This document shows, piece by piece, positions 21,830-63,545 of a stretch of DNA of 64,000 nucleotides. The notes beneath the pieces were generated by a model, which was not told the origin of the DNA, did not search any database, and saw only the letters and a program-made list of their open reading frames with translations. How positions within the stretch are numbered: the stretch's first letter is position 1; every line of letters begins with the position of its first letter. The position numbers were made by a program, and so were the translations under genes. The stretch is from Pontederia crassipes. Its lineage: Eukaryota; Streptophyta; Magnoliopsida; Commelinales; Pontederiaceae. The stretch is from assembly GCA_030549335.1 (NCBI GenBank), contig CM060186.1, positions 25,411,189-25,475,188 on the forward strand, read 5' to 3'.

Positions 21830-24800
21830 CAAATATGCCAAATATGATTAAAATAAATAATAATTTCTTTCTAAAACATAATGTACAAATAAAAATCTTT
21901 TAATTTATTTTTCTTCAGAATTAAAAATCATTTAAAATAAAAAAGTAATTTGAGTCAAGTTAAGATTAATCTTTCCTTTTTATCAATTTGGTATGATTAA
22001 AATAAATAATAATTTATTATTTTTAGAATTAAAATGCAATAATTAAATTTGAGTCAAATTAAGATCAATCTTTTTCTTTTCATCAATTTGAGTATGATTC
22101 AAAGAAAAAAAATTACAATAGTGTGTTATGTAATGTAACAAAAATAAAAGAAGATTAAAATTATGAGCATATTTTGATTAAAAGTAGATTTTTTTTACTA
22201 TGATTAAAATAAATAACATTTTCTTTCTAAAAGATAATGTACAAGTAAAAAATCTTTTTAAAATATTATTTGTTATTTTCAGAATAAAAAATAATTTAAA
22301 ATAAATAATTCAAATTGAGTCAAATTAGGTTAATCTTTTCATTTTTTTTGTCAAGTTGAGTAAGATTAAACTAAATAGCATTTTATATCCAAAATATAAT
22401 ATGAAAGTAAATAATAGTTCATATTAAAAGATATATTATTATTTTATAAATTAATAATAATTTTTTAAAAAAAATAATTTGAGTCAAATTAATATTAATC
22501 TTTCCTTTTTATCAATTTGAGTATGGTAAAATAAAATAATATTTCTTTCTAAAAGATAATATGAAAATAAATAATAATTCCTATTTAAGAAATTATTTGT
22601 TAATTTCGGGATTAATGATAATTTAAATAAAGAATCCAATTTGAGTCCAATGAAGATTAATCTTTCCTTTTTTATCAATTTGAGTATGAATAAAATAAAG
22701 GATATTTTCTTTTCAAAAGCTAACACGCAAGCAAAGAATAATTCCTATTAAAAAAAAATTTAAAATAAATAATTCAATTTATGTAAGATTAAGATTAATC
22801 TTTTATTTTTATGAATCTCAATATAATTACAAAAAAAATTTCAAAAGATAAGTTGTTACCTTCAGAATTAAAAATTAATAATTTAATTTGAGTCAAACTA
22901 ATATTAATCGTTTCTTTTTTATCAATTTGAGTATGATTAAAATAAATAATATATTTTTTTGAAAAAGATAATATGCAAGTAAATAATAATATGACTTTTA
23001 AGAGATGATTTAATATTTAAGAAATTATTTCTTATTTTCGGTATTAAAAATAATTCGAAATAAAAAATTAAATTTGAGTCAAATTAAGATTAATCTTTCA
23101 TTTTAATCAATTTGGTTATAAAAATTATCTTATCACGATTTGTATAAGGTAACGAAAATAAAACAACATTAAATAGCATAATTTAATTATCTTTTAAGTA
23201 GGAATTATTATTTACTTGCATATTACCCTTTGGAAAAAAATATTATTTATTTTAATCATGCTCAAATTTATAAAAAGGAAATATTTTAAACTTTATTTGA
23301 CTCAAGTTAAATTTTTTTAATTTATTTTTTTATTCCAAAGTTAACAAGTTATCTTTTACGATCCATCTTTCTTTGCTTTTTTATGAATTTGAGTATGATG
23401 AAAATAATAATGTTTTCTTTCTTAAAGATAATGTGACACTAAATAATAATTCTTTTTTAAAAGATAATTTCTTATTTCTGGAATTTAAAATACTTTTAAA
23501 ATAATATTTCTTTTTATGAATTTGCGTATGATTAAAAGAAATAATCTTCCCTTTTTAAAAGATAATGCACAAAATATATAATATGTCCTTTATAGAAAAT
23601 AATGTATTGTATTTAGGATTAAACAAGTAATATTTCCTTTCTAAAAGTCACCATATAAATATAATAAAAAAAAATTTCATCTTTAAAGGATAGATGTATT
23701 ATTTTTAAATTTTTAAAAAATAAATAATGAATTTAATATGTCCAATTAAGATTAATCTTTCTTTATATTTTTTTAATTAAAGATAAGGTTGTCAAGATTT
23801 TGATATAGACGATCTTCGATCTTATAACCCTCATCTGATCTTTTGTAAGATCTCGATCTTAATAATCATGATTAAAGATAATGAATAAGTAAATAATTTT
23901 GAAAATAAATATTATCTTATAATGGTTTGTTGTATAAGGTAACAAAAATAAAAGAAGATTAAATGGAATAATTCAATTAGAAGGATATTTTTTAGTATGA
24001 TTAAAATAAATAAAATTTTCTTTCTAAAAGATAATGTGCAAGTAAATAATATTTCCTTTCTAAAAGATAATTATGATTTTTAGTTAAAAAATAATTTAAA
24101 ATAAAGAATTTAGTTTGAGTTCAATTAAGATAAAATCTTTTCATTAAGGGGTTAATTCGTTAGACCTCACATAAACTATAGCGATTTTTCGCGTCTATCA
24201 TTTTCACGTTAGTCCATTTATCATATTCTGTTAACTTTCATTATTTTTTATTTTTTCAATTTATGAAATAACTAAACTGCTCTCCTCTAACTTGAAATAA
24301 ATGTGAACTTTTTTCTTCGTTGAGGAGTAATTTAGTCATTTAATAAATTTAAAAGTAGAAGATAATAGAAAAGTTAAGAGAATATGACCGACCGTCTAAA
24401 GTAAATCATGGTATAGTTTAGAGGGGTCGCTACGGTAAGTTCATATATAAGAGGCGGACGCGAAAAATTGAAATAATTTTATTTATTATTTTGCTTTTAA
24501 AAATGTATTATTCCGAAAATGTTAAAATTAACGATTCAATTTGATTATGATCAAAATAAATAATCTTTCATTTCCCAAAGGTGTTGTCGGAGTATAATGA
24601 GATAAATAATATTTTCTTTTTAAATGATAATGAGTTATGTTTTTGCATTAAAAATAATTTAAATTTAATAAATTGAGACCAAATTAAGATCAAATGTTCC
24701 TTTTTAAAAGATAATGGACAAGAATAATAAAGAAAAGTAATATTTCCTTCTTAATTTGAGTATGATTAAACTAAATAATCTTTTCTTTCTAAAAGGTAAT

Positions 24801-28626: not shown

Positions 28627-30228
28627 CACTACAAGAAAACTGAGGATTACAGGCGGTTTGTCTGTAATTTCTCCAAAAACCGTCGGAAACGATGATTTTT
28701 TCGACGGAATCAGGGATGTCTGAAAAATGGTGGTCGCAAATCAATTTTCGACGGTTGAGAAAGAACCGTCGGAAATTTTGACGGTCGTGACTGTCGATAT
28801 TTGTGGCGGTTGACGAAATGGTAAAAAATTCGGCGGTCACGACCCCCGATATTTCTGGCGGTTGACAAAACCGTCAAAAACTTCGGAAGTCGTGACCGTC
28901 GAAGTTTTCGACGGTGTCGTCGACCGTCGGAAATATTGGCGGTTGCTACCGCCAAAAATTTCGGCGGTCATCGGGCGACTGCCGAAGTTTCGATGGTCAA
29001 AATCGTCGCAAAGAATTTTTATAAGATAAAAAAATTAGACGGCCGACGGTGAGATTCGGCCGCCAGGCGGCCGATCCGAACGCTGGGGCCCGGATACGGC
29101 CGCAGGGGGTCGGATCCGAACGCTCGGCCGGCGGCCGATCCGGCCGCTGGGGGTCGGATTCGAATGGCGACCGGATCCGGTCGCGATCCGACCGCTGGGG
29201 GCCGGATCCGGCCGCGATCCGACCGCTGGGGGTCGGATCCGGCCGCCAGCGACGAGATCCGGCCACCTGGCGGTTCGAACTGGAGAGAGACGCCGGCGGG
29301 AGAGGTCACCGACGGTCGATGCTGACGTCCAATCGGAGGCTCGCCGGCCGGGAGAGGGAGCTCGCCGGGCGGGAGAGGGAGAGGGAGAGGGGGGAGAGAG
29401 AGAGAGAGGATGGAGGGGTATTATATATATATGTGGAAAGTTGAGAAAGCGGGAAAACGAAAAAAAAGTGGGATAATGAAATTTTAATTACCGACGATTT
29501 CGAGCGTCAAAAAAGTAAATATTAATTATTTTTAAAATTACCGATGACTGTGACCGTTGAAAATTATTTAATTGTAAAAATAAAATACTATAATTAGTTA
29601 TAATATTTATTTTTTATTTTATTGACGATTTGAACAGTCGCTAATTATTACCGACAGTCGAAACCGTAAAAAATTACGATGGTTTGGACTGTCGCAAATT
29701 ATATTAATAATATACTCCTCATATTATATTATTATAAATTTACCGATGGTTACAATCATCATAAATTGCAACGGATGGATATCCGTCGAAAATATCGACA
29801 TCCTAATCGTCGAAAAATAAAATAATAATATTATATAATTTATTATTTATATTTTTGACGGTCATAGCCGTCGGAAAATCCATCGAAAATTATGACAGAT
29901 GGATATCCGTTGGAAATATCGACGTTCTTAATCGTCGAAAAATAAAATAATAACATAACAAATTACATAATTTATATTTTCATTTTCGATGGTCGTAACC
30001 GTCGAAAAATCCGTCGAAAATTGTGACGGATGGATATCCGAAGAAAATATCGACGTTCCTAAACGTCGAAAAATAAAATAATAATATAACAAATTACATA
30101 ATCTATTATTTTTATTTTCAACAGTTGTAACCGTCGGAAATAATTCCGTCGCAAAATTCGTCGCAAATTGCGACGGATTTCTATCCATCGGAAATTGCCC
30201 ATCGAAAAATGGTAATTTTCTTGTAGTG
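28627..30228. mobile_element. Non-autonomous CACTA element inside the foldback's left arm
   Basis: The ends CACTACAAGAAAAC and AATTTTCTTGTAGTG are inverted, with a perfect 3-bp duplication TTA (28624-28626 and 30229-30231). Skipping it restores the arm, which pairs with the right arm around 35290. Subterminal regions are full of the motif CCGTCGGAAAT and variants in both orientations, as expected for CACTA transposase-binding arrays. No transposase is present. Confidence 0.9.
29040..29275 (+). repeat. GC-rich tandem repeat GGATCCGGCCGCTGGGGGTC
   Basis: About eight imperfect units of roughly 20-28 bases built from GGATCCG, GGCCGC and TGGGGG in the middle of the CACTA element. It is extremely CpG-rich compared with its surroundings. 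Open frames here exist on both strands because stop codons are rare in GC-rich DNA. Confidence 0.7.
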
Positions 30229-40250: not shown

Positions 40251-40517
40251 TGATGCATGCATTTTACAACATATAATTAGGCTTGCATTTAGACTTATTT
40301 TGTGTAATTTCTCATAGCATGCATCTATTTTTATAGTTATTTCTTTAAATTCTTGGAAGTAGCAATCTACCTCGAGTTGTTGTAATTTGCAGGAATTATT
40401 GATGAAAAATAAAGGAAGAAAGGAATAAAAGAAGAAGCACGCAAAATGGACATAATTGAGCTACCAAAAATTAATTCTTAAATTTCGCGGGTTGTTACAT
40501 TCACTTCATGGGCCATG

Positions 40518-41757
40518 TGTAGGATCCCAAAGGGCACCAAAAGGGGGGGGGGGGGGGGGGGGGTGAATTGGTGTTCAATTGAAAATATCAATTTCACAAA
40601 AACCATCGCGGAAGCACAAAACCGATTCTTAAATTCTTTATAATTCAGATCATAAATTCAATATGAATGGGAGAGAGAGAGAGAGAAAATCAAACTCAAA
40701 TGGACACGGTGATTTGTTGACGAGGTTCGGCCACACCTTGACCTACGTCCCCGCTCTAACTTCTCGACCTCGAGACCGTCGGAGATTCCACTAGCACTCC
40801 CTTTGTTCCAAATGGGGCAAGGAAGAAAGCCATTTACACCACCTCATTTTTCACCGCTTCGAGAGGCAAGGCAACCTCTCCTCCTAGGAAGCTAATCTAT
40901 TTATCTCGCTCAAGAGGTAAGATTTTGAACCTCTTTTACACAGAGCTCTCTCTAATTTTTCTGAACAAAAGTGTTTCTCTCTTTTACAAAGTTAAGCTCA
41001 CAAGAGAAAAAGAGAGAAAGAATGAGAAAGCTATAAAATGAAAATTTCAAGAAATGGTCTCTCTTTGACAACTTGAAGCTTTTCTTCAATGAGTGAAAGG
41101 GTGCTTTTGCCTCTGGCTTTGGCACTCCTTTTATAGCCTTCAATGTGTGAAAAATTCGTCCAAAAATCATTCCACAAATTTCTCCTTCAAATTTGACCAT
41201 TACTGTTCATTTGACTCAGAGGCCGGTCGACCGCACTTTTGGACCGGTCGACCGGTCTATATGACTATTGCATTGATTTTTCAGTTACCGTAGCTGGTCG
41301 GTCGATCGGACCATCGACCGATGTCTCGACCGGTACAGTCTCAGTTTTGATTTATAGCCGTTGATCGGTCGACCGGTCTGTCGACCGGTATAGTCTTGAC
41401 GTCGTCCGGAGCAGGCTAAGTAGTTATCGGTCGACCGACATCTTCTATTCGGTCGACTAGTACATCTCGACCGGCCTTCTCTTTGCGTCAATACAGGTTG
41501 ACCGACCTGCACTCTTTTGATCATAACTTTCTGCACGGTTATCTAAATTTGATAATCTTAGAGTCTATGGAAATCTATCAGAATTCTCTACAATTTTGAT
41601 GTTCCACTTTTCTCCAAATCTAATTAGATCAGTGATAATTATCTAATCAAAGCGTAGTGTGCATAAAGTTATAAATTTTTCTTTAAACTTTTTTAACATT
41701 TCAACTTTAATCTTTTGAGGTTTGCTTCATCAAAATATAATTTTATATGTCATTAAT
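40518..41757 (-). repeat. TR-GAG array LTR A (leftmost)
   Basis: About 1240 bases, beginning TGTAGGATCCC after the CCATG duplication. It contains a run of 21 G (40543-40563) and a cluster of GGTCGACCG motifs (41220-41510). It differs more from the inner LTRs than those differ from each other. Confidence 0.85.
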
Positions 41758-43929
41758 TTGACGAAAAAGTTGTAAAATCTTGTTAAAACAATTTTACTCA
41801 CCTTAACACTTAACTTTTCGTATAAAATATATTCAGATCATATTTCTCCTATACTTCTCCCCCTTTTGTTTCATCAAAAAGTCATTTGTAAATGAAATAT
41901 ATAAGAAACCATATGTAATCCCCCCTTAATCAATTTTTCAAAAAATCTATTCTTCTCCCCTTTTGTCATATAATAGATATGAAGAGTTTGCAACATAAGG
42001 TTTTGAAAGATAACTCCCCCTAAGTTTATGGCTATTTTATAATGAAAACCAATCTATGAAAGTCGAAACAAAAATATATTAAGAATCAAAATATGGCATA
42101 AAACTTTGATTCAACAATGATATCCACGATAAAGTTTAATCATGCTCCCCCTGTCACTATTGCCAATTTTCATTTATATGTTCCTCTTTTAGGAAATTGT
42201 ACTTTGAATTTTTCAGTGACATAAAAAATAGACGATACGATTACCATAACCTTTGTGCCTTCACATCTCCTACTCCATATGTCCTTTGCATGTGAGGCAC
42301 ACCTGAAAAGAAATCAAGTAATTTTTGGTACCCAAACTTTCTTGGGTCCGATTTTGTTAGATGATGTTCCTTTCGGAACCAAAATCATGCCATGTCGTAA
42401 TGATTTTCTTATTTTACATTGATGTGCATAATGGCCATGAAACCCGCTTGTAAAACATTTGAGATGTAATTTTCTATGTTTGGATTTCCAATAAGAATTT
42501 TCATGTCCAAAATGATTCCTAAGATTATTTGCCATTACATGAGAAATAGTCTTATTTTGTGAGTTCTTCAAAAGGTCATTTTCCTTCTTTACATTGTCTA
42601 AAGAACATGCTAGTTTTACAATTTCGCATGCATGTGTAATTTCCAAAGTTTCAATTTTATTTTTGAAATTTTCATTTTCCATAAGACATATATCATTTTC
42701 TTCTTTTAATTTTTCAATCTCATGTGTTAACTTGTCATTTTCTTCTTTAAGTGAGAAATATCTTTTTATAAGAGATGAGAGTTCTTTATTCACATCTAAA
42801 GAAAGAGCTTCTTCGGAAGAGTTCGATGAGTCATAATTTGAATTTGAAGGGTTAGAAAGTACCTCATCGTCGTGTGCCATCAAGCATGTGTATGCTTCAT
42901 CACTAGAAGAGCTTGATGAATTACTTGTTTCACTAGACTCTTCATATTTTTTCTTTTTACCTTTTCGGAATTTTTCTTCTTTGTGGTGCTTGTATGATTT
43001 TCTTGTTGGCTTCTCGTTCTTGTCTTTCTTCTTTAACCAACTTGAGATATTTATCCAATTTTCTAGTGTAGAGTGCGAGTTTCTTTTCATCCACTTCCTC
43101 TTCGCTTGAGTCTTCTTCTATTGTATTTGTCTTCAATGCCAATGTTTTTTTTCTTGGGGGATTTTTCTTCATGATCTTCTTGGATTGAGATCTCATAGTT
43201 TAAAAGTGAACCAATAAGATCATCAAAATTCAATTTGTTCAAATCCTTTTCTTCGATTACAGTCCTCTTTGTATGCCATTTTGAGGAGAGAGACCTGATA
43301 ATCTTTTTCACTTTTTGGGGGTTAGATCTTGACTCGCCCAAAGAGGCTAAGCCATTCAAAATATCATTAAACCGAGCTACCATATCATTTATGGATTCAT
43401 TTTCATGAATTTTGAAAGAATCATATTGATGGTTTAAAATATTCAATCTAGATTCTTTAACCTTGTCGGTTCCTTCATAAGTGGTGATGAGCTTCTCCCA
43501 AATCTTGGTTGAAGATTCACGACTTGAAATCCGATTAAACTCCGTCGAATCCAAAGCACAATAAAATATATTTTTCGCTTTCCAATCACGTTTGAAAAAA
43601 TCTTTTCTTTTTCTTTAGAACCAGTAGGTAACTTTTCATGAACATAAAAACATTTTTCAACTATTTCCCACATGTCGATATCAATAGAACAAATATATGC
43701 TTGAAATCTAATTTTTCAATATGCAAAATTTGATGCATTTAAAAGAGGAGGACGACTAATAGATTGTCCTTCGGCAAAACCAAATCCGCTTGATGCCATG
43801 GCTCTTGAATATTGTTAAATCTTAAAACAAGATGATTGAATCTTAAAAATATTAAGATCTAAAATGATTAGATCTGAAAACGAGAAGATTCAAAAGATCA
43901 AAACAAGAACAACCTGCTCTGATACCAAT
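41758..43929 (-). mobile_element. TR-GAG internal region 1 (gag-only)
   Basis: A minus-strand primer-binding site TGGTATCAGAGC (plus 43916-43927) lies two bases from LTR B. It is followed by UBN2/gag-type coding sequence (blocks such as MWEIVEKCFYV, FNDILNGLASLGE, LNKLNFDDLIGSLL) and a lysine/serine-rich part with a coiled-coil-like stretch and a zinc-knuckle-like motif near 42440. This is a Copia-type gag. It is broken at a few places. The about 550 bases left of gag (41758-42313) are non-coding. Confidence 0.85.
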
Positions 43930-45173
43930 TGTAGGATCTCAAAAGGCACCAAAAGGGGGGGGGGGGGTGAATTGGTGTTCAATTGAATATATCAATTTCA
44001 CAAAAACCGTCGCGGAAGCACAAAACCGATTCTTAAATCCTTTATAATTCAGATCATAAATTCAATATGAATGGGGAGAGAGAGAGAGAAAATCAAACTC
44101 AAATGGACACGGTGGTTTGTTGACGAGGTTCGGCCACACCTTAGTCTACGTCCCCGCTCCGATTTCTCGACCTCGAGATCGTCGAAGATTCCACTAGTAC
44201 TCCCTTTGTTCCAAATGGGGCAAGGAAGAAAGCCCTTTACACCACCGCATTTTTCTTCGTTTCGAGAGGCAAGGCAACCTCTCCTCCTAGGAAGCTAATC
44301 TATTTCTCTCGCTCAAGAGGTAAGATTTGGAACTTCTTTTACACATGAGCTCTCTCTAATTTTTCTGAACAAAAGTGTTTCTCTCTTTACAAAGCTAAGC
44401 TCACAAGAGAAGAAGAGAGAAAGAATGAGAAAGCTATAAAATGAAAACTTCAACAAATAATCTCTCTTTGACAACTTGAAGCTTTTCTTCAATGAGTGAA
44501 TGGGTGCTTATGCCTCTGGCTTTGGCACTCCTTTTATAGCCTTTAATGTGTGGAAAATTCGTCCAGAAATCATTCCACAAATTTCTCCTTCAAATTTGAC
44601 CTTATTGTTCATTTGACTCACAGGCCGGTCGACCGCACTTCTGGACCGGTCGACCGGTCTATATGACCGTTGCGTTGATTTTTCAGTTACCACAGCTGGT
44701 CGGTCGACCGGACTATCGACCGGTGTCTCGCCCGGTACAGTCTCACAGTTTTAATTTATAACCGTTGATCGGTAGGCCGCTGCATCGACCTGTCTGTCGA
44801 CTAGTATAGTCTCGACGTCGTCTGGAGCAGCCTCAGTAGTTATCGGTCGACCGACATCTTCTATTCGGTCGACAGGTACATCTCGACCGGCCTTCTTTGC
44901 GTCGACCGGCAGGTTGACCGACCTGCACTCTTTTGATCATAACTTTCTGCACGATTATTCAAATTAGATGATATTAGAGTCTATGGAAATCTATCACAAT
45001 TCTCTACAACTTTGCTCCAAAACTAATTAGATCAGTGATAATTACCTAATCAAAGCGTAGTGTGCATAAAGTTATTCATTTTTTTAAAACTTTTTTAACA
45101 TTTCAACTTTAATCTTTCGATGTTTGCTTCATCAAAATATAATTTTATATGTCATTAAAACTTTGACCCAACA
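43930..45173 (-). repeat. TR-GAG array LTR B (inner)
   Basis: 1244 bases from TGTAGGATC to CCCAACA. It shares diagnostic variants with LTR C that are absent from the outer LTRs A and D. It contains a G run (43955-43967) and the GGTCGACCG cluster (44622-44915). Confidence 0.9.
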
Positions 45174-47398
45174 ATCTCTCCCTTTCTTATGAAGACAAAT
45201 CGAGAAATATGAAAAAAAAATATAATTTGACGAAAAAGTTGTAAAATCTTGTTAAAATAATTTTACTCACCTTAACACTTAACTTTTCGTATAAAATATA
45301 TTCAGGACATATTTCTCCTATACTTCTCCCCCTTTTGTTTCATCAAAAAGTCATTTGTAAATGAAATATATAAGAAACCATATGTAATTCCCCCTTAATC
45401 AATTTTTCAAAAAATCTATTCTTCTCCCCTTTTGTCATATAATAGATATGAAGAGTTTGCAACATAAGGTTTTGAAAGATAACTCCCCCTAAGTTTATGG
45501 CTATTTTATAATGAAAACCAATCTATGAAAGTCGAAACAAAAATATATTAAGAATCAAAATATGGCATAAAACTTTGATTCAACAATGATATCCACGATA
45601 AAGTTTAATCATGCTCCCCCTGTCACTATTGCCAATTTTCATTTATATGTTCCTCTTTTAGGAAATTGTACTTTGAATTTTTTAGTGACATAAAAAATAG
45701 ACGATACGATTACCATAACCTTTGTGCCTTCACATCTCCTACTCCATATGTCCTTTGCATGCGAGGCACACCTGAAAAGAAATCAAGTAATTTTTGGTAC
45801 CCAAACTTTCTTGGGTCCGATTTTGTTAGATGATGTTCCTTTCGGAACCCAAATCATGCCATGTCGTAATGATTTTCTTATTTTACATTGATGTGCATAA
45901 TGGCCATGAAACCCGCTTGTAAAACATTTGAGATGTGATTTTCTATGTTTGGATTTCCAATAAGAATTTTCATGTCCAAAATGATTCCTAAGATTACTTA
46001 TCGTTACATGAGAAATAGTCTTATTTTGTGAGTTCTTCAAAAGGTCATTTTCCTTCTTTACATTGTCTAAAGAACATGCTAGTTTTACAATTTCGCATGC
46101 ATGTGTAATTTTCAAAGTTTCAATTTCATTTTTGAAATTTTCATTTTCCATAAGACATATATCATTTTCTTCTTTTAATTTTTCAATCTCATGTGTTAAC
46201 TTGTCATTTTCTTCTTTAAGTGAGAAATATCTTTTTATAAGAGATGAGAGTTCTTTATTCACATCTAAAGAAAGAGCTTCTTCGGAACAGTTCGATGAGT
46301 CATAATTTGAATTTGAAGGGTTAGAAAGTACCTCATCGTCGTGTGCCATCAAGCATGTGTATGCTTCATCACTAGAAGAGCTTGATGAATTACTTGTTTC
46401 ACTAGACTCTTCATATTTTTTCTTTTTACCTTTTCGGAATTTTTCTTCTTTGTGGTGCTTGTATGATTTTCTTGTTGGCTTCTCGTTCTTGTCTTTCTTC
46501 TTTAACCAACTTGAGATATTTATCCAATTTTCTAGTGTAGAGTGCGAGTTTCTTTTCATCCACTTCCTCTTCGCTTGAGTCTTCTTCTATTGTATTTGTC
46601 TTCAATGCCAATGTTTTTTTTCTTGGGGGATTTTTCTTCATGATCTTCTTGGATTGAGATCTCATAGTTTAAAAGTGAACCAATAAGATCATCAAAATTC
46701 AATTTGTTCAAATCCTTTTCTTCGATTACAGTCCTCTTTGTATGCCATTTTGAGGAGAGAGACCTGATAATCTTTTTCACTTTTTGGGGGTTAGATCTTG
46801 ACTCGCCCAAAGAGGCTAAGCCATTCAAAATATCATTAAACCGAGCTACCATATCATTTATGGATTCATTTTCATGAATTTTGAAAGAATCATATTGATG
46901 GTTTAAAATATTCAATCTAGATTCTTTAACCTTGTCGGTTCCTTCATAAGTGGTGATGAGCTTCTCCCAAATCTTGGTTGAAGATTCACGACTTGAAATC
47001 CGATTAAACTCCGTCGAATCCAAAGTACAATAAAATATATTTTTCGCTTTCCAATCACGTTTGAAAAAATCTTTTCTTTTTCTTTAGAACCAGTAGGTAA
47101 CTTTTCATGAACATAAAAACATTTTTCAACTATTTCCCACATGTCGATATCAATAGAACAAATATATGCTTGAAATCTAATTTTTCAATATGCAAAATTT
47201 GATGCATTTAAAAGAGGAGGACGACTAATAGATTGTCCTTCGGCAAAACCAAATCCGCTTGATGCCATGGCTCTTGAATATTGTTAAATCTTAAAACAAG
47301 ATGATTGAATCTTAAAAATATTAAGATCTAAAATGATTAGATCTGAAAATGAGAAGATTCAAAAGATCAAAACAAGAGCAACTTGCTCTGATACCAAT
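45174..47398 (-). mobile_element. TR-GAG internal region 2 (gag-only)
   Basis: Same structure as region 1: a purine-rich tract next to LTR B (minus-strand AAGAAAGGGAGAGAT, a polypurine tract), about 600 non-coding bases, gag at 45783-47270, and a primer site TGGTATCAGAGC (plus 47385-47396) next to LTR C. Gag residues differ from region 1 at only a few positions over 250 codons. Broken copy. Confidence 0.87.
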
Positions 47399-48645
47399 TG
47401 TAGGATCTCAAAAGGCACCAAAAGAGGGGGGGGGGGTGAATTGGTGTTCAATTGAAAATATCAATTTCACAAAAACCGTCGCGGAAGCACAAAACCGATT
47501 CTTAAATCCTTTATAATTCAAATCATAAATTCAATATGAATGGGGGGAGAGAGAGAGAGAAAATCAAACTCAAATGGACACGGTGGTTTGTTGATGAGGT
47601 TCGGCCACACCTTAGCCTACGTCCCCGCTCCGACTTCTCGACCTCGAGACCGTCGGAGATTCCATTAGCACTCCCTTTGTTCCAAATGGGGCAAGGAAGA
47701 AAGCCCTTTACACCACCGCCTTTTTCTCCGTTTCGAGAGGCAAGGCAAACTCTCCTCCTAGGAAGCTAATCTATTTCTCTCGCTCAAGAGGTAAGATTTG
47801 GAACCTCTTTTACACATGAGCTCTCTCTAATTTTTCTGAACAAAAGTGTTTCTCTCTTTACAAAGCTAAGCTCACAAGAGAAGAAGAGAGAAAGAATGAG
47901 AAAGCTATAAAATGAAAACTTCAACAAATAATCTCTCTTTGACAACTTGAAGCTTTTCTTCAATGAGTCAATGGGTGCTTATGCCTCTGGCTTTGGCACT
48001 CCTTTTATAGCCTTCAATGTGTGGAAAATTCGTCCAGAAATCATTCCACAAATTCCTCCTTCAAATTTGACCGTTATTGTTCATTTGACTCACAGGCCGG
48101 TCGACCGCACTTCTGGACCGGTCGACCGGTCTATATGACCGTTGCGTTGATTTTTCAGTTACCGCAGCTAGTCGGTCGACCGGACTATCGACCGGTGTCT
48201 CGACCGGTACAGTCTCACAGTTTTAATTTATAACCGTTGATCGGTAGGCCGCTGCATCGACCTGTCTGTCGACTAGTATAGTCTCGACGTCGTCTGGAGC
48301 AGCCTCAGTAGTTATCGGTCGACCGACATCTTCTATTCGGTCGACAGGTACATCTCGACCGGCCTTCTTTGCGTCGACCGGCAGGTTGACCGACCTGCAC
48401 TCTTTTGATCATAACTTTCTGCACGATTATTCAAATTAGATGATATTAGAGTCTATGGAAATCTATCACAATTCTCTACAACTTTGCTCCAAAACTAATT
48501 AGATCAGTGATAATTACCTAATCAAAGCGTAGTGTGCATAAAGTTATTCATTTTTTTAAAACTTTTTTAACATTTCAACTTTAATCTTTCGATGTTTGCT
48601 TCATCAAAATATAATTTTATATGTCATTAAAACTTTGACCCAACA
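47399..48645 (-). repeat. TR-GAG array LTR C (inner)
   Basis: 1247 bases, TGTAGGATC to CCCAACA. It is the closest relative of LTR B. GGTCGACCG cluster at 48093-48390. Confidence 0.9.
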
Positions 48646-50872
48646 ATCTCTCCCTTTCTTATGAAGACAAATCGAGAAATATGAAAAAAAAATATAATTT
48701 GACGAAAAACTTGTAAAATCTTGTTAAAATAATTTTACTCACCTTAACACTTAATTTTTCGTATAAAATATATTCAGGACATATTTCTCCTATACTTATC
48801 TCCCTTTTGTTTCATCAAAAAGTCATTTGTAAATGAAATATATAAGAAACCATATGTAATTCCCCCTTAATCAATTTTTCAAAAAATCTATTCTTCTCCC
48901 CTTTTGTCATATAATAGATATGAAGAGTTTGCAACATAAGGTTTTGAAAGATAACTCCCCCTAAGTTTATGGCTATTTTATAATGAAAATCAATCTATGA
49001 AAGTCGAAACAAAAATATATTAAGAATTAAAATATGGCATAATACTTTGATTCAACAATGATATCCACGATAAAGTTTAATCATGCTCCCCCTGTCACTA
49101 TTGCCAATTTTCATTTATATGTTTCTCTTTTAGAAAATTGTAGTTTGAATTTTTTAGTGACATAAAAAATAGACGATACTATCACCATAACCTTTGTGCC
49201 TTCACATCTCCTACTCCATACGTCCTTTGCATGTGAGGCACACCTAAAAAGAAATCAAGTAATTTTTGGTACCCAAACTTTCTTGGGTCCGATTTTGTTA
49301 GATGATGTTCTTTTCGGAACCCAAATCTTGCCATGTCGTAATGATTTTCTTATTTTACATTGATATGCATAATGGCCATGAAACCCGCTTGTAAAACCTT
49401 TGAGATGTGATTTTCTATGTTTGGATTTCCAATAAGAATTTTCATGTCCAAAATGATTCCTAAGATTATTTGTTGTTACATGAGAAATAGTCTTATTTTG
49501 TGAGTTCTTCAAAAGGTCATTTTCCTTCTTTACATTGTCTAAAGAACATGCTAGTTTTACAATTTCGCATGCATGTGTAATTTCCAAAGTTTCAATTTCA
49601 TTTTTGAAATTTTCATTTTCCATAAGACATATATCCTTTTCTTCTTTTAATTTTTCAATCTCATGTGTTAACTTGTCATTTTCTTCTTTAAGTGAGAAAT
49701 ATCTTTTTATAAGAGATGAGAGTTCTTTATTCACATCTAAAGAAAGATCTTCTTCGGAAGAGTTTGATGAGTCATAATTTGAATTTGAAGGGTTAGAAAG
49801 TACTTCATCGTCGTGTGCCATCAAGCATGTGTATGCTTCATCACTAGAAGAGCTTGATGAATTACTTGTTTCACTAGACTCTTCATATTTTTTCTTTTTA
49901 CCTTTTCGGAATTTTTCTTCTTTGTGGTGCTTGTATGATTTTCTTGTTGGCTTCTCGTTCTTGTCTTTCTTCTTTAACCAACTTGAGATATTTATCCAAT
50001 TTTCTAGTGTAGAGTGCGAGTTTCTTTTCATCCACTTCCTCTTCGCTTGAGTCTTCTTCTATTGTATTTGTCTTCAATGCCAATGTTTTTTTTTCTTGGG
50101 GGATTTTTCTTCATGATCTTCTTGGATTGAGATCTCATAGTTTAAAAGTGAACCAATAAGATCATCAAAATTCAATTTGTTCAAATCCTTTTCTTCGATT
50201 ACAGTCCTCTTTGTATGCCATTTTGAGGAGAGAGACCTGAGAATCTTTTTCACTTTTTGGGGGTTAGATCTTGGCTCGCCCAAAGAGGCTAAGCCATTCA
50301 AAATATCATTAAACCGAGCTACCATATCATTTATGGATTCATTTTCATGCATTTTGAAAGAATCATATTGATGGTTTAAAATATTCAATTTAGATTCTTT
50401 AACCTTGTCGGTTCCTTCATAAGTGGTGATGAGCTTCTCCCAAATCTTGGTTGAAGATTCACAACTTGAAATCCGATTAAACTTCGTCGAATCCAAAGCA
50501 CAATAAAATATATTTTTCGCTTTCCAATCAAGTTTTGAAAAAATCTTTTGTTTTTCTTTAGAATCAGTAGGTAACTTTTCATGAACATAAAAACATTTTT
50601 CAACTATTTCCCACATGTCGATATCAATAGAACAAATATATGCTTGAAATCTAATTTTTCAATATGCAAAATTTGATGCATTTAAAAGAGGAGGACGACT
50701 AATAGATTGTCCTTCGGTAAAACCAAATCCTCTTGATGCCATGGCTCTTGAATATTGTTAAATCTTAAAACAAGATGATTGAATCTTAAAAATATTAAGA
50801 TCTAAAATGATTAGATCTGAAAATGAGAAGATTCAAAAGATCAAAACAAGAGCAACTTGCTCTGATACCAAT
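48646..50872 (-). mobile_element. TR-GAG internal region 3 (gag-only)
   Basis: Polypurine tract next to LTR C, non-coding part, gag at 49255-50740, and a primer site TGGTATCAGAGC (plus 50859-50870) next to LTR D. It contains the longest uninterrupted UBN2-type segment of the three (50074-50616, 180 codons), yet the copy as a whole is broken. Confidence 0.87.
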
Positions 50873-52119
50873 TGTAGGATCTCAAAAGGCACCAAAAGGG
50901 GGGGGGGGTGAATTGGTGTTCAATTGAAAATATCAATTTCACAAAAACCGTCGCGGAAGCACAAAACCGATTCTAAAATCCTTTATAATTCAGATCATAA
51001 ATTCAATATGAATGGGGGGAGAGAGAGAGAGAAAATCAAACTCAAATGGACACGGTGGTTTGTTGACGAGGTTCGGCCACACCTTAGCCTACGTCCCCGC
51101 TCCGACTTCTCGACCTCGAGGCCGTCGGAGATTCCACTAGCACTCCCTTTGTTCCAAATGGGGCAAGGAAGAAAGTCCTTTACACCACCGCCTTTTTCTC
51201 CGTTTTGAGAGGCAAGGCAACCTCTCCTCCTAGGAAGCTAATCTATTTCTCTCGCTCAAGAGGTAAGATTTCGAACCTCTTTTACACTTGAGCTCTCTCT
51301 AATTTTTCTGAACAAAAGTGTTTCTCTCTTTACAAAGCTAAGCTCACAAAAGAAGAAGAGAGAAAGAATGAGAAAGCTATAAAATGAAAACTTCAAGAAA
51401 TGGTCTCTCTTTGACAACTTGAAGCTTTTCTTCAATGAGTGAATGTGTGCTTATGCCTCTGGCTTTGGCACTCCTTTTATAGCCTTCAATGTGTGGAAAA
51501 TTCGTCCAGAAATCATTCCACAAATTCCTCCTTCAAATTTGACCGTTACTGTTCATTTGACTCGCAGGCCGGTCGATCGCACTTCTGGACCGGTCGACCG
51601 GTCTATATGACCGTTGCGTTGATTTTTCAGTTACCGCAGCTGGTCGGTCGACCGGTGTCTCGACCGGTACAGTCTCGCAGTTTTGATTTATAGCCGTTGA
51701 TCGGTCGACCGCTGCATCGACCTGTCTGTCGACTGGTATAGTCTCGACGTCGTCTGGAGCAGCCTCAGTAGTTATCGGTCGACCGGCATCTTCTATTCGG
51801 TCAACAGGTACATCTCGACCGGCCTTCTTTGCGTCGACCGACAGGTTGACCGACTTGCATTCTTTTGATCATAACTTTCTGCACGGTTATCCAAATTAGA
51901 TGATATTGGAATCTATGGAAAGCTATTAGAATTCTCTACAACTTTGATGTTCCACTTTTCTCCAAAACTAATTAGGTCAGTGATAATTATCTAATCAAAG
52001 CGTAGTGTGCATAAAGTTATTCATTTTTCTTTAAACTTTTTTAGCATTTCAACTTTAATCTTTCGAACTTTGCTTCATCAAAATATAATTTTATATGTCA
52101 TTAAAACTTTGACTCAACA
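50873..52119 (-). repeat. TR-GAG array LTR D (rightmost)
   Basis: 1247 bases ending CTCAACA, directly followed by the right CCATG duplication. It shares with LTR A a TGATGTTCCACTTTTC segment not present in LTRs B and C. Confidence 0.9.
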
Positions 52120-53374
52120 CCATGAAATATGGTTTAACTCCAAACTATTGCTTTCTCGACTTTGAGAGAAGCGCACAATGAAGAAACTATGATTTCACGG
52201 GCCGTAAAAGAATTATCACGGTCGTGAAGACACAATTTCACGATCCTATTACCGTAGTTCACGGATCGAGCATCGCTTATTTTTGGAAAAAGAGAACTTA
52301 CGGGCCGTGACACATTTCGCACGACTGTTAAAACATAAGTTCACGGATCCCGCAAGTTTCACGGCTTCTCCATTGATTGGAAAAGATGTCATCACAAGTC
52401 GTGATGATGAGCTAATGGGCCATTACGAGATGAAGTGTTATGAAGACAAGAATGTAACGAGCCGTAACGAAGCCTTTACGGGTCTCACAAAAATGTTGGA
52501 GGAAGTTCATATCGCATAGCGTGCCATGAAACAATAGTCACGAATCTCACAAAAGTTACGCACTACATAAGTTGAGTTTCACGGGCCATTAGTGTTATGT
52601 CACGGGTCGTGAAGTTACTAAGTCATACGTTATAATTAGAAAAGCCTGATTCACGATTGTGAATGATTGAGCCATTAAATCATATTCAAGGGGCATGACA
52701 GACATTGTTTTCGACATGGAAATTTATTTTTGGAAGAATTCTCAACACACAAGGACTTCAACTCTTACCATATGTCTCAGGGATCGATTGGAAACAAATT
52801 AGACCAAAATTTTAGAGTCTTGCAAGACAAAAATTTCAAAATTAATAGAACTCCAAATTTACCTTATCTTACAAGGAAAATGTTTCTGTTTCTTCTCAAA
52901 TTGCATGGAAATTTGAGCCTTTATAAAAAGGGATGCCTGACAGTCAAGAACAATCATTCTAGGGCTTGCTACCAAAGCTTTCAAGCCAAGAATAGAGGAG
53001 CACTTTTGAAGGACGAAGGAGAAGACTTCTACGTAGCACACTCAAGAGATGATTGTGTAGCAGTTCATCATCGTTTCTAAAAGAGTACTCTTCGTTCTAC
53101 ATATTGTTGGGATGATATTTTAGATTTTCATGTTTTATCCATCATTTTATCATTTAGTTTTAGTTGCAAGAGTTTTAGTGAATGAACAAATTTTGATTTT
53201 GGTTAATCAAATAATAAATTATTTAGTTTTTATGAACATGATTGCTGTATTTAATGCTTTCTTCAGATTTTAATGACTTTGGATTAATAATTAATTGATT
53301 ACTATAATCAAATATTTAGTTGATAATTTTCAACCATAATTTATTCTAAACTTTATGTTGAAACAATACATGTC

Positions 53375-62725: not shown

Positions 62726-63067
62726 TGTGCGCTCTCTCTCTCTCCCCCACTCTCTCTCTCTTCCCCCCTCCCTCTGGATCATCACTTTAAAAGGGAACAC
62801 TTGCCCAGATCTTTCTCCCTGCATGCACATCATTCTTTCTTATTACCATTATCACCATCATCTCTCTCTCTCTCTCAAGACATCTGAAATAAACTCTATC
62901 TTGACTTCCTTCTCCAGAAACCCTTCAGAGGTTGTCCCTTATTCCATTCCTCCGCCCATTGCATCTCTCCCCATCCCCCTCACACCCACCCCACTCCGCC
63001 ATATATTTATAGGTTTCTTCCTCGTGACTCCAAACCAACAGAGGCACCAAGTTGCCACATTGTCAAG
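62726..63067 (+). promoter_or_regulatory. Putative promoter and leader of PRE-like gene B
   Basis: A TATA-box-like ATATATTTATAGG (about 63001-63013) lies 55-67 bases before the start codon. Upstream are CT-rich tracts at 62731-62766 and 62861-62876. The CT tracts recall the (GA/CT) tract at the other PRE-like gene. Promoter use is inferred. Confidence 0.5.
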
Positions 63068-63545
63068 ATGTCCAGTAGAAGGTCCCGGTCGAGACAGTCG
63101 AGTTCGCCGAGGATTAATGAGGAGCAGATCAATGATCTTGTTTCTAAGCTGCAGGCAGTTCTCCCGGAGGTTCGTCTTGGAAGGAATGATAGGGTACGTA
63201 TATATTTTCGTCCGTCCTTTTTTTATATAATGCAAACAGCACATAACAATTGATTCCATGATTATAATGTATAATTAAGAACAATATATACGATGAGATC
63301 AGAGTATACGTACACAGCATTATATCATACATATATCTGAAGGCAACTTTGATTCACATATCTCATCAGCGTGTTGGATGTTACTGTTGCAGGTCTCGGC
63401 AACGAAGGTGTTACAGGAGACCTGCAACTACATCAGAAGTTTACATCAAGAAGCGGATGACTTGAGCGAGAGGCTATCGGAGTTGCTTGCCAACACAGAA
63501 ATCAGCAGTGCTCAAGCTGCAATTATTAGAAGCTTGCTTATGTGA
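63068..63545 (+). CDS. PRE/ILI-type atypical helix-loop-helix protein B
   Basis: Two exons: 63068-63193 (42 codons, [15 protein letters not shown]) and 63393-63545 (50 codons plus stop). The 199-base intron has GTACGT donor and TTGCAG acceptor, at the same position as in gene A. The product has 92 residues, the classic PRE length. Helix 1 is [17 protein letters not shown], helix 2 [16 protein letters not shown], then [11 protein letters not shown] and [10 protein letters not shown]. It lacks a basic region, so it should act by pairing with other bHLH proteins, not by binding DNA. Family members promote elongation growth downstream of brassinosteroid, gibberellin and auxin. It is intact. Third positions are less GC-rich than in gene A, so the two paralogues have diverged in composition. 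Confidence 0.94.

Follow-up and report, generated by a model that had tools for sequence, protein, structure and literature searches.

Analysis of a 64,000-nucleotide stretch of Pontederia crassipes DNA, referred to here as the window (C4:25411189-25475188 of a 1.13-Gb genome in 43 contigs), revealed a tandem array of LTR retroelements that probably arose from a single insertion of a copia-type, gag-only element, followed by two or more steps of expansion on site, most simply through recombination between its LTRs. An earlier note on this DNA had proposed one integration with later expansion by unequal recombination as one possible origin, and this option is supported by a single target-site duplication and by divergence dating.

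The order LTR-gag-LTR-gag-LTR-gag-LTR that had been read from the sequence was recovered by self-BLAST, which yielded four LTR and three internal copies at 40518-52119 on the minus strand (Table 1). The direct repeats are spaced 3403, 3471 and 3472 bp apart, the unit length of the element is ~3.47 kb, and the internal regions (INT) A, B and C measure 2,173, 2,225 and 2,227 bp, respectively. The CCATG reported against the outermost LTR ends is indeed present at 40513-40517 and 52120-52124; exact agreement of 5 bases at two fixed places has a chance of about 1/1024 if even base use is assumed. At the internal junctions, the LTR ends adjoin the primer binding site (PBS) or the polypurine tract (PPT), and a second target-site duplication was looked for there and not seen. 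Likewise, the left and right 2-kb flanks of the array showed no match to each other. The array thus has the makeup of a tandem LTR-retrotransposon, with alternating LTRs and internal regions, an LTR at each end and a single duplication around the whole. The perfect register that had been claimed does not hold, since the 3'-most unit is short by about 67 bp. This loss spans the PPT-LTR junction of INT A and LTR1, affecting the last 52 aligned columns of the former and the first 15 of the latter, and the PPT of unit A is gone because INT A lacks these columns. Furthermore, both substitutions and indels distinguish the copies, which are therefore not a single sequence pasted three times. The term macrosatellite-like was an overstatement, given that a satellite has many units and three are present here, as in arrays C3 and C10 described below. 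CpG-bearing repeats of the GGTCGACC type are abundant in the middle of the LTRs (for example, 44630-44910), and close to the LTR end there is a run of C whose length varies.

Table 1. Features of the tandem array, in positions of the window
Feature	Position	Strand	Remark
Target-site duplication CCATG, left copy	40513..40517	.	adjoins LTR1 outer end
LTR1 (array 3' LTR), U3 without first 15 aligned columns	40518..41756	-	
Internal region A, gag broken; last 52 aligned columns and PPT absent	41757..43929	-	
Broken gag 3' part, unit A, 258 aa open piece	42314..43090	-	
PBS of unit A, minus-strand reading TGGTATCAGAGC	43916..43927	-	
LTR2, common to units A and B	43930..45173	-	
Internal region B, gag broken	45174..47398	-	
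PPT of unit B	45175..45188	-	exact match
Broken gag 3' part, unit B, 258 aa open piece	45783..46559	-	
PBS of unit B	47385..47396	-	
LTR3, common to units B and C	47399..48645	-	
Internal region C, gag broken	48646..50872	-	
PPT of unit C	48647..48660	-	exact match
Broken gag 3' part, unit C, 258 aa open piece	49255..50031	-	
Broken gag 5' part, unit C, PF14223 Retrotran_gag_2 (copia type), E 3.5e-30	50074..50616	-	
PBS of unit C	50859..50870	-	
LTR4 (array 5' LTR), TATA-like box at 51474-51482	50873..52119	-	
Target-site duplication CCATG, right copy	52120..52124	.	adjoins LTR4 outer end

The unit had been described as containing gag, a primer site and a polypurine tract but no pol. In agreement, the PBS (TGGTATCAGAGC), which we take to be a match to the initiator-Met tRNA, is present in all three units and unit C contains no pol domain; the description fails in that the PPT is found in two of the three units and gag is broken in each of them. 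The gag domain PF14223 was detected in a 180-aa piece of unit C (E 3.5e-30, and 2e-31 in a second scan). In all three units, gag is a pseudogene with gag-like segments in more than one frame, and one early stop is common to units A, B and C, so that gag had probably been disabled before the array grew. The Pfam scan of INT C covered all 21 stop-to-stop pieces of at least 40 aa on both strands and detected no pol domains, gag alone being above cut-off; INT A and B are 98-99% alike to C. Matches to OST-HTH and leucine-zipper domains were weak and under their cut-offs, and were taken as chance. With two LTRs, PBS and PPT, a gag domain and no pol, the element fits the TR-GAG class, of which Chaparro et al. 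2015 is said to be the defining paper, and the simple LTR-INT-LTR family copies L018 and L028, which have perfect duplications, support this layout. Going by its gag type only, the element would be placed in the Ty1/copia superfamily.

Searches of the genome extended these observations to the family. Gag frames of at least 450 aa with no stop inside the match were present in 9 of the best 150 of 11,572 gag candidates, and none of these 150 had a frame of more than 518 aa; therefore, no gag-pol polyprotein was seen in the family among the scored matches. Because there is no pol, the family would have had to borrow reverse transcriptase and integrase from a copia element. Other copia elements of the same genome produced many RVT_2 matches in frames near 1,400 aa (best 150 of 16,717 candidates). 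At C13:61286633-61296531, three such matches, each in a 1,431-aa frame, have a spacing of exactly 4,582 bp and may represent a complete copia element arrayed in tandem. Another pair, at C9:24087607-24092908, is 4,567 bp apart. Seven stretches in viral contigs fit the gag pattern, none of which was confirmed as gag, and the window contained no tRNA or Rfam matches at the gathering score. As for the array in the window, it is very probably no longer active.

The family is present in hundreds of copies. A 24-base string spanning the junction of LTR end and PBS has 446 exact occurrences in the genome, as compared to 0 for the reversed control. The LTR search, in which the best 40 of 10,195 candidates were scored, listed 45 matches, including the window's own 4. 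The remaining 41 correspond to 33 loci, of which 20, picked from the list and not at random, were fetched. The search for solo copies that the earlier note had advised was successful, as 9 of these 20 loci (L009, L010, L013, L016, L020, L021, L022, L023, and L025) are solo LTRs with perfect 5-bp duplications. The abundance of solo LTRs is a sign of frequent LTR-LTR recombination. Another two loci have the simple LTR-INT-LTR structure with perfect duplications, and the other nine either lack a perfect duplication or are truncated or complex. At L026, a fragment of internal region lies upstream of the first LTR, and this locus is perhaps an array remnant.

Other arrays had also been suggested as a target for searches, and four were found and sequence-checked in the same family and genome. 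They were located through same-strand gag matches 3.2-3.5 kb apart, in searches that scored the best 150 of 11,572 and the best 147 of 9,935 candidates, and all four places fetched, picked by score and spacing rather than sampled, turned out to be arrays. Two of them contain four LTRs and three internal regions, namely, C3 near 18.90 Mb, with ACAAG at each end, and C10 near 17.21 Mb, with ACCAG at each end and one internal region shortened. Three LTRs and two internal regions are present in C9, near 54.93 Mb, and in C6, near 61.09 Mb, the latter with the end of a further internal region. A perfect duplication is not claimed for C9, as its outer 5-mers agree in 4 of 5 bases with the ends as placed in this analysis. 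Spacing only points to further candidates at C8 (~20.28 Mb), C19 (~1.33 Mb), C5 (~19.88 Mb), and C10 (~10.36 Mb), and wider-spaced pairs of gag matches were observed on C14, C13, C16, and C15. The view that a gag-only array is unusual is not borne out by these four further arrays, nor by reports that tandem elements are common in plants (PMC11899658, PMC4717578).

The divergence of the outer LTRs marks the insertion because both should be identical at that time. In the window, LTR1 and LTR4 differ at 82 of 1212 sites (6.77%), and the remaining pairs reported are LTR3-LTR4 with 3.81%, LTR2-LTR4 with 4.31% and LTR2-LTR3 with 1.61%. The internal regions differ by 0.87% (A-B), 1.80% (B-C) and 2.16% (A-C), resulting in an INT/outer-LTR ratio of 0.13-0.32 (0.12-0.33 without CG/TG/CA sites, 0.06-0.30 for transversions only). 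The INT/LTR ratio between different arrays, which served as a crude rate gauge, was 0.74-1.11 in 10 pairs (0.68-1.00 without CG/TG/CA sites, 0.65-1.41 for transversions). The window ratios are far below this gauge, and the window array therefore grew after insertion. Internal copies as old as the insertion would be expected to show ~109 differences at a ratio of 0.74, whereas 19 were seen for A-B (P 2.8e-26) and 47 for A-C (P 2e-11). When the expectation was instead set at 0.47, the lowest ratio found in another array (C10), P was 9.8e-13 for A-B, 5e-5 for B-C and 0.0031 for A-C. Two considerations speak against the growth reading: gene conversion between units could make an array born as a tandem look younger than its insertion, and the rate of evolution may be lower in internal regions than in LTRs. 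The dating rests on one genome assembly from one individual. As judged by LTR divergence, the first doubling would date to about 0.6 of the insertion age and the second to about a quarter of it. With a substitution rate of 1.3e-8 per site per year, a rough estimate would place the insertion near 2.7 million years ago.

A tree of 38 LTRs, comprising 4 from the window, 14 from the other arrays and 20 from 17 other loci, grouped the window LTRs in one clade (support 100) apart from the 34 others. Within this clade, LTR1 is located outside LTR2-4 (support 100), and LTR2 is sister to LTR3 (support 100). Each of the other arrays also formed its own clade (C3 96, C9 99, C6 100, C10 99), with C3 and C9 as sisters (support 99) and weak inner nodes in C3 (55-56). 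Since each array forms its own clade, the arrays arose locally instead of descending from an array lineage that transposed. Uninterrupted identity extends over 442 bp between LTR2 and LTR3 (permutation P 0.003) and over 737 bp between INT A and INT B (permutation P 0.007), and a 435-bp run free of differences is common to all three INTs (B-C P 0.006, A-C P 0.001). These long identity runs suggest patchwise exchange between units. We do not claim that the middle LTRs are chimeras of LTR1 and LTR4, for which the best split was at column 334 (Fisher P 0.027, permutation P 0.22).

The most probable course of events starts with the single insertion of a copia-type TR-GAG-like element, shown by the matching ends with their CCATG duplication. 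The first growth step generated LTR-INT-LTR-INT-LTR and the third unit was added later, an order shown by the divergence values. Most simply, both steps would have involved exchange between LTRs at non-corresponding positions on sister chromatids or homologues, and gene conversion or further exchange would have affected patches of the array since then. The reciprocal product of such unequal exchange would be a solo LTR, a form abundant in the same family.

An array that was already tandem at insertion, made from the cDNA of a transcript reading through a one-LTR circle or an existing array and with units homogenised later, is an unlikely source of the window array. PMC11899658 mentions this route as a possibility, and C3 looks like a product of it, with outer LTRs differing by 5.69%, internal regions by 3.89-4.75% (ratio 0.68-0.83) and LTR pairs at near-equal distances (5.3-7.1%). 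This near-star pattern is compatible with a tandem at or soon after insertion and is no proof of it, because early recombination after insertion would look alike. The ratio of C9 is similar (0.82; outer LTRs 5.29%, INT 4.36%), but its pairing of LTR1 with LTR2 (support 100, 3.16%) departs from a clean star and implies conversion or later exchange. C10 is intermediate between the window and C3 (outer LTRs 8.97%, INT 4.24-5.89%, ratio 0.47-0.66), and the ratio of C6 (0.60) was left unused because the 5' end is truncated and the first LTR is not the true outer one. Birth as a tandem predicts equal unit divergence or outer LTRs that are mutually closest, yet the outer LTRs of the window are among its most different (6.77%) and the internal copies are far too similar. 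Integration of a multimer, the other origin considered in the earlier note, is accordingly disfavoured by dating for the window array and possible for C3 and perhaps C9. The family may even make arrays by two routes, C3 (perhaps C9) having been tandem at or soon after integration and the window array having formed later by LTR-LTR exchange, a proposal that we regard as rather unlikely. If it were true, the occurrence of exactly four LTRs and three gags at three loci might reflect a limit on transcribed or packaged multimers and not chance.

Growth in place also has to be weighed against an assembly artefact, in which one or two units would be haplotype copies or repeat mis-joins. The divergence of INT A-B (0.87%) and LTR2-LTR3 (1.61%) is at a level possible between two haplotypes. 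However, divergence from the A and B copies is 1.8-4.3% for LTR4 and INT C, the layout of four LTRs and three INTs recurs with its own duplication at two other loci, and an assembly of this size in so few contigs suggests long reads, making an artefact very unlikely. At least two neighbouring independent insertions that recombined via their LTRs, an origin for which the Wukong authors found some support in multi-LTR elements (PMC4528315), should leave unlike 5-bp ends; the ends of the window array match and its LTRs form one clade apart from the others, and we consider this origin highly improbable.

Array formation by LTR retrotransposons is already known in plants, and the window array is a further case. 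A 2025 plant study that did not decide between possible routes of origin reported tandem LTR-retrotransposons with one duplication to be common in plants, among them TLI1, TLI2 and the IDENTAM set from rice, Arabidopsis, almond and cotton (PMC11899658). Like these, the window array has alternating shared LTRs and internal regions, LTR termini and one short duplication overall. In contrast, the two rice loci detailed there consist of two units and most of the rice set is gypsy, whereas the window array has three units, is gag-only and copia-type, belongs to a family with several arrays and has a growth order readable from divergence. Tandemly arrayed TRIMs were reported in 35 of 43 plant genomes (PMC4717578), and Wukong has multi-LTR copies, attributed in the abstract to unequal crossing over, as well as solo LTRs (PMC4528315), which the window family also has. 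Both form non-autonomous LTR arrays bounded by one duplication, L3I2 and L5I4 being examples, but TRIMs are devoid of coding capacity and Wukong has a length of 532 bp and an internal domain of 72 bp, as opposed to a unit of ~3.47 kb with gag. The named class TR-GAG shares the LTRs, the gag domain and the absence of pol, and its descriptions in PMC5818461 and PMC6022998, as far as consulted, do not mention tandem arrays; none were described for TR-GAG elements in the literature found, judged mostly by titles and abstract openings. Comparing the age of internal copies with that of outer LTRs can separate growth after insertion from tandem insertion, locus by locus. At least five arrays of a single family are available in this genome for such dating, and the window and C3 seem to answer differently.

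Elsewhere in the window, positions 62888-63542 on the plus strand contain two pieces that resemble exons of an ILI-type bHLH gene (PF23174, E 2.6e-7 and 5.7e-25), a type of growth regulator in plants. Tandem repeats are present at 22199-22757 (162-bp unit, 3.4 copies) and at 29763-30158 (131-bp unit, 3.0 copies).
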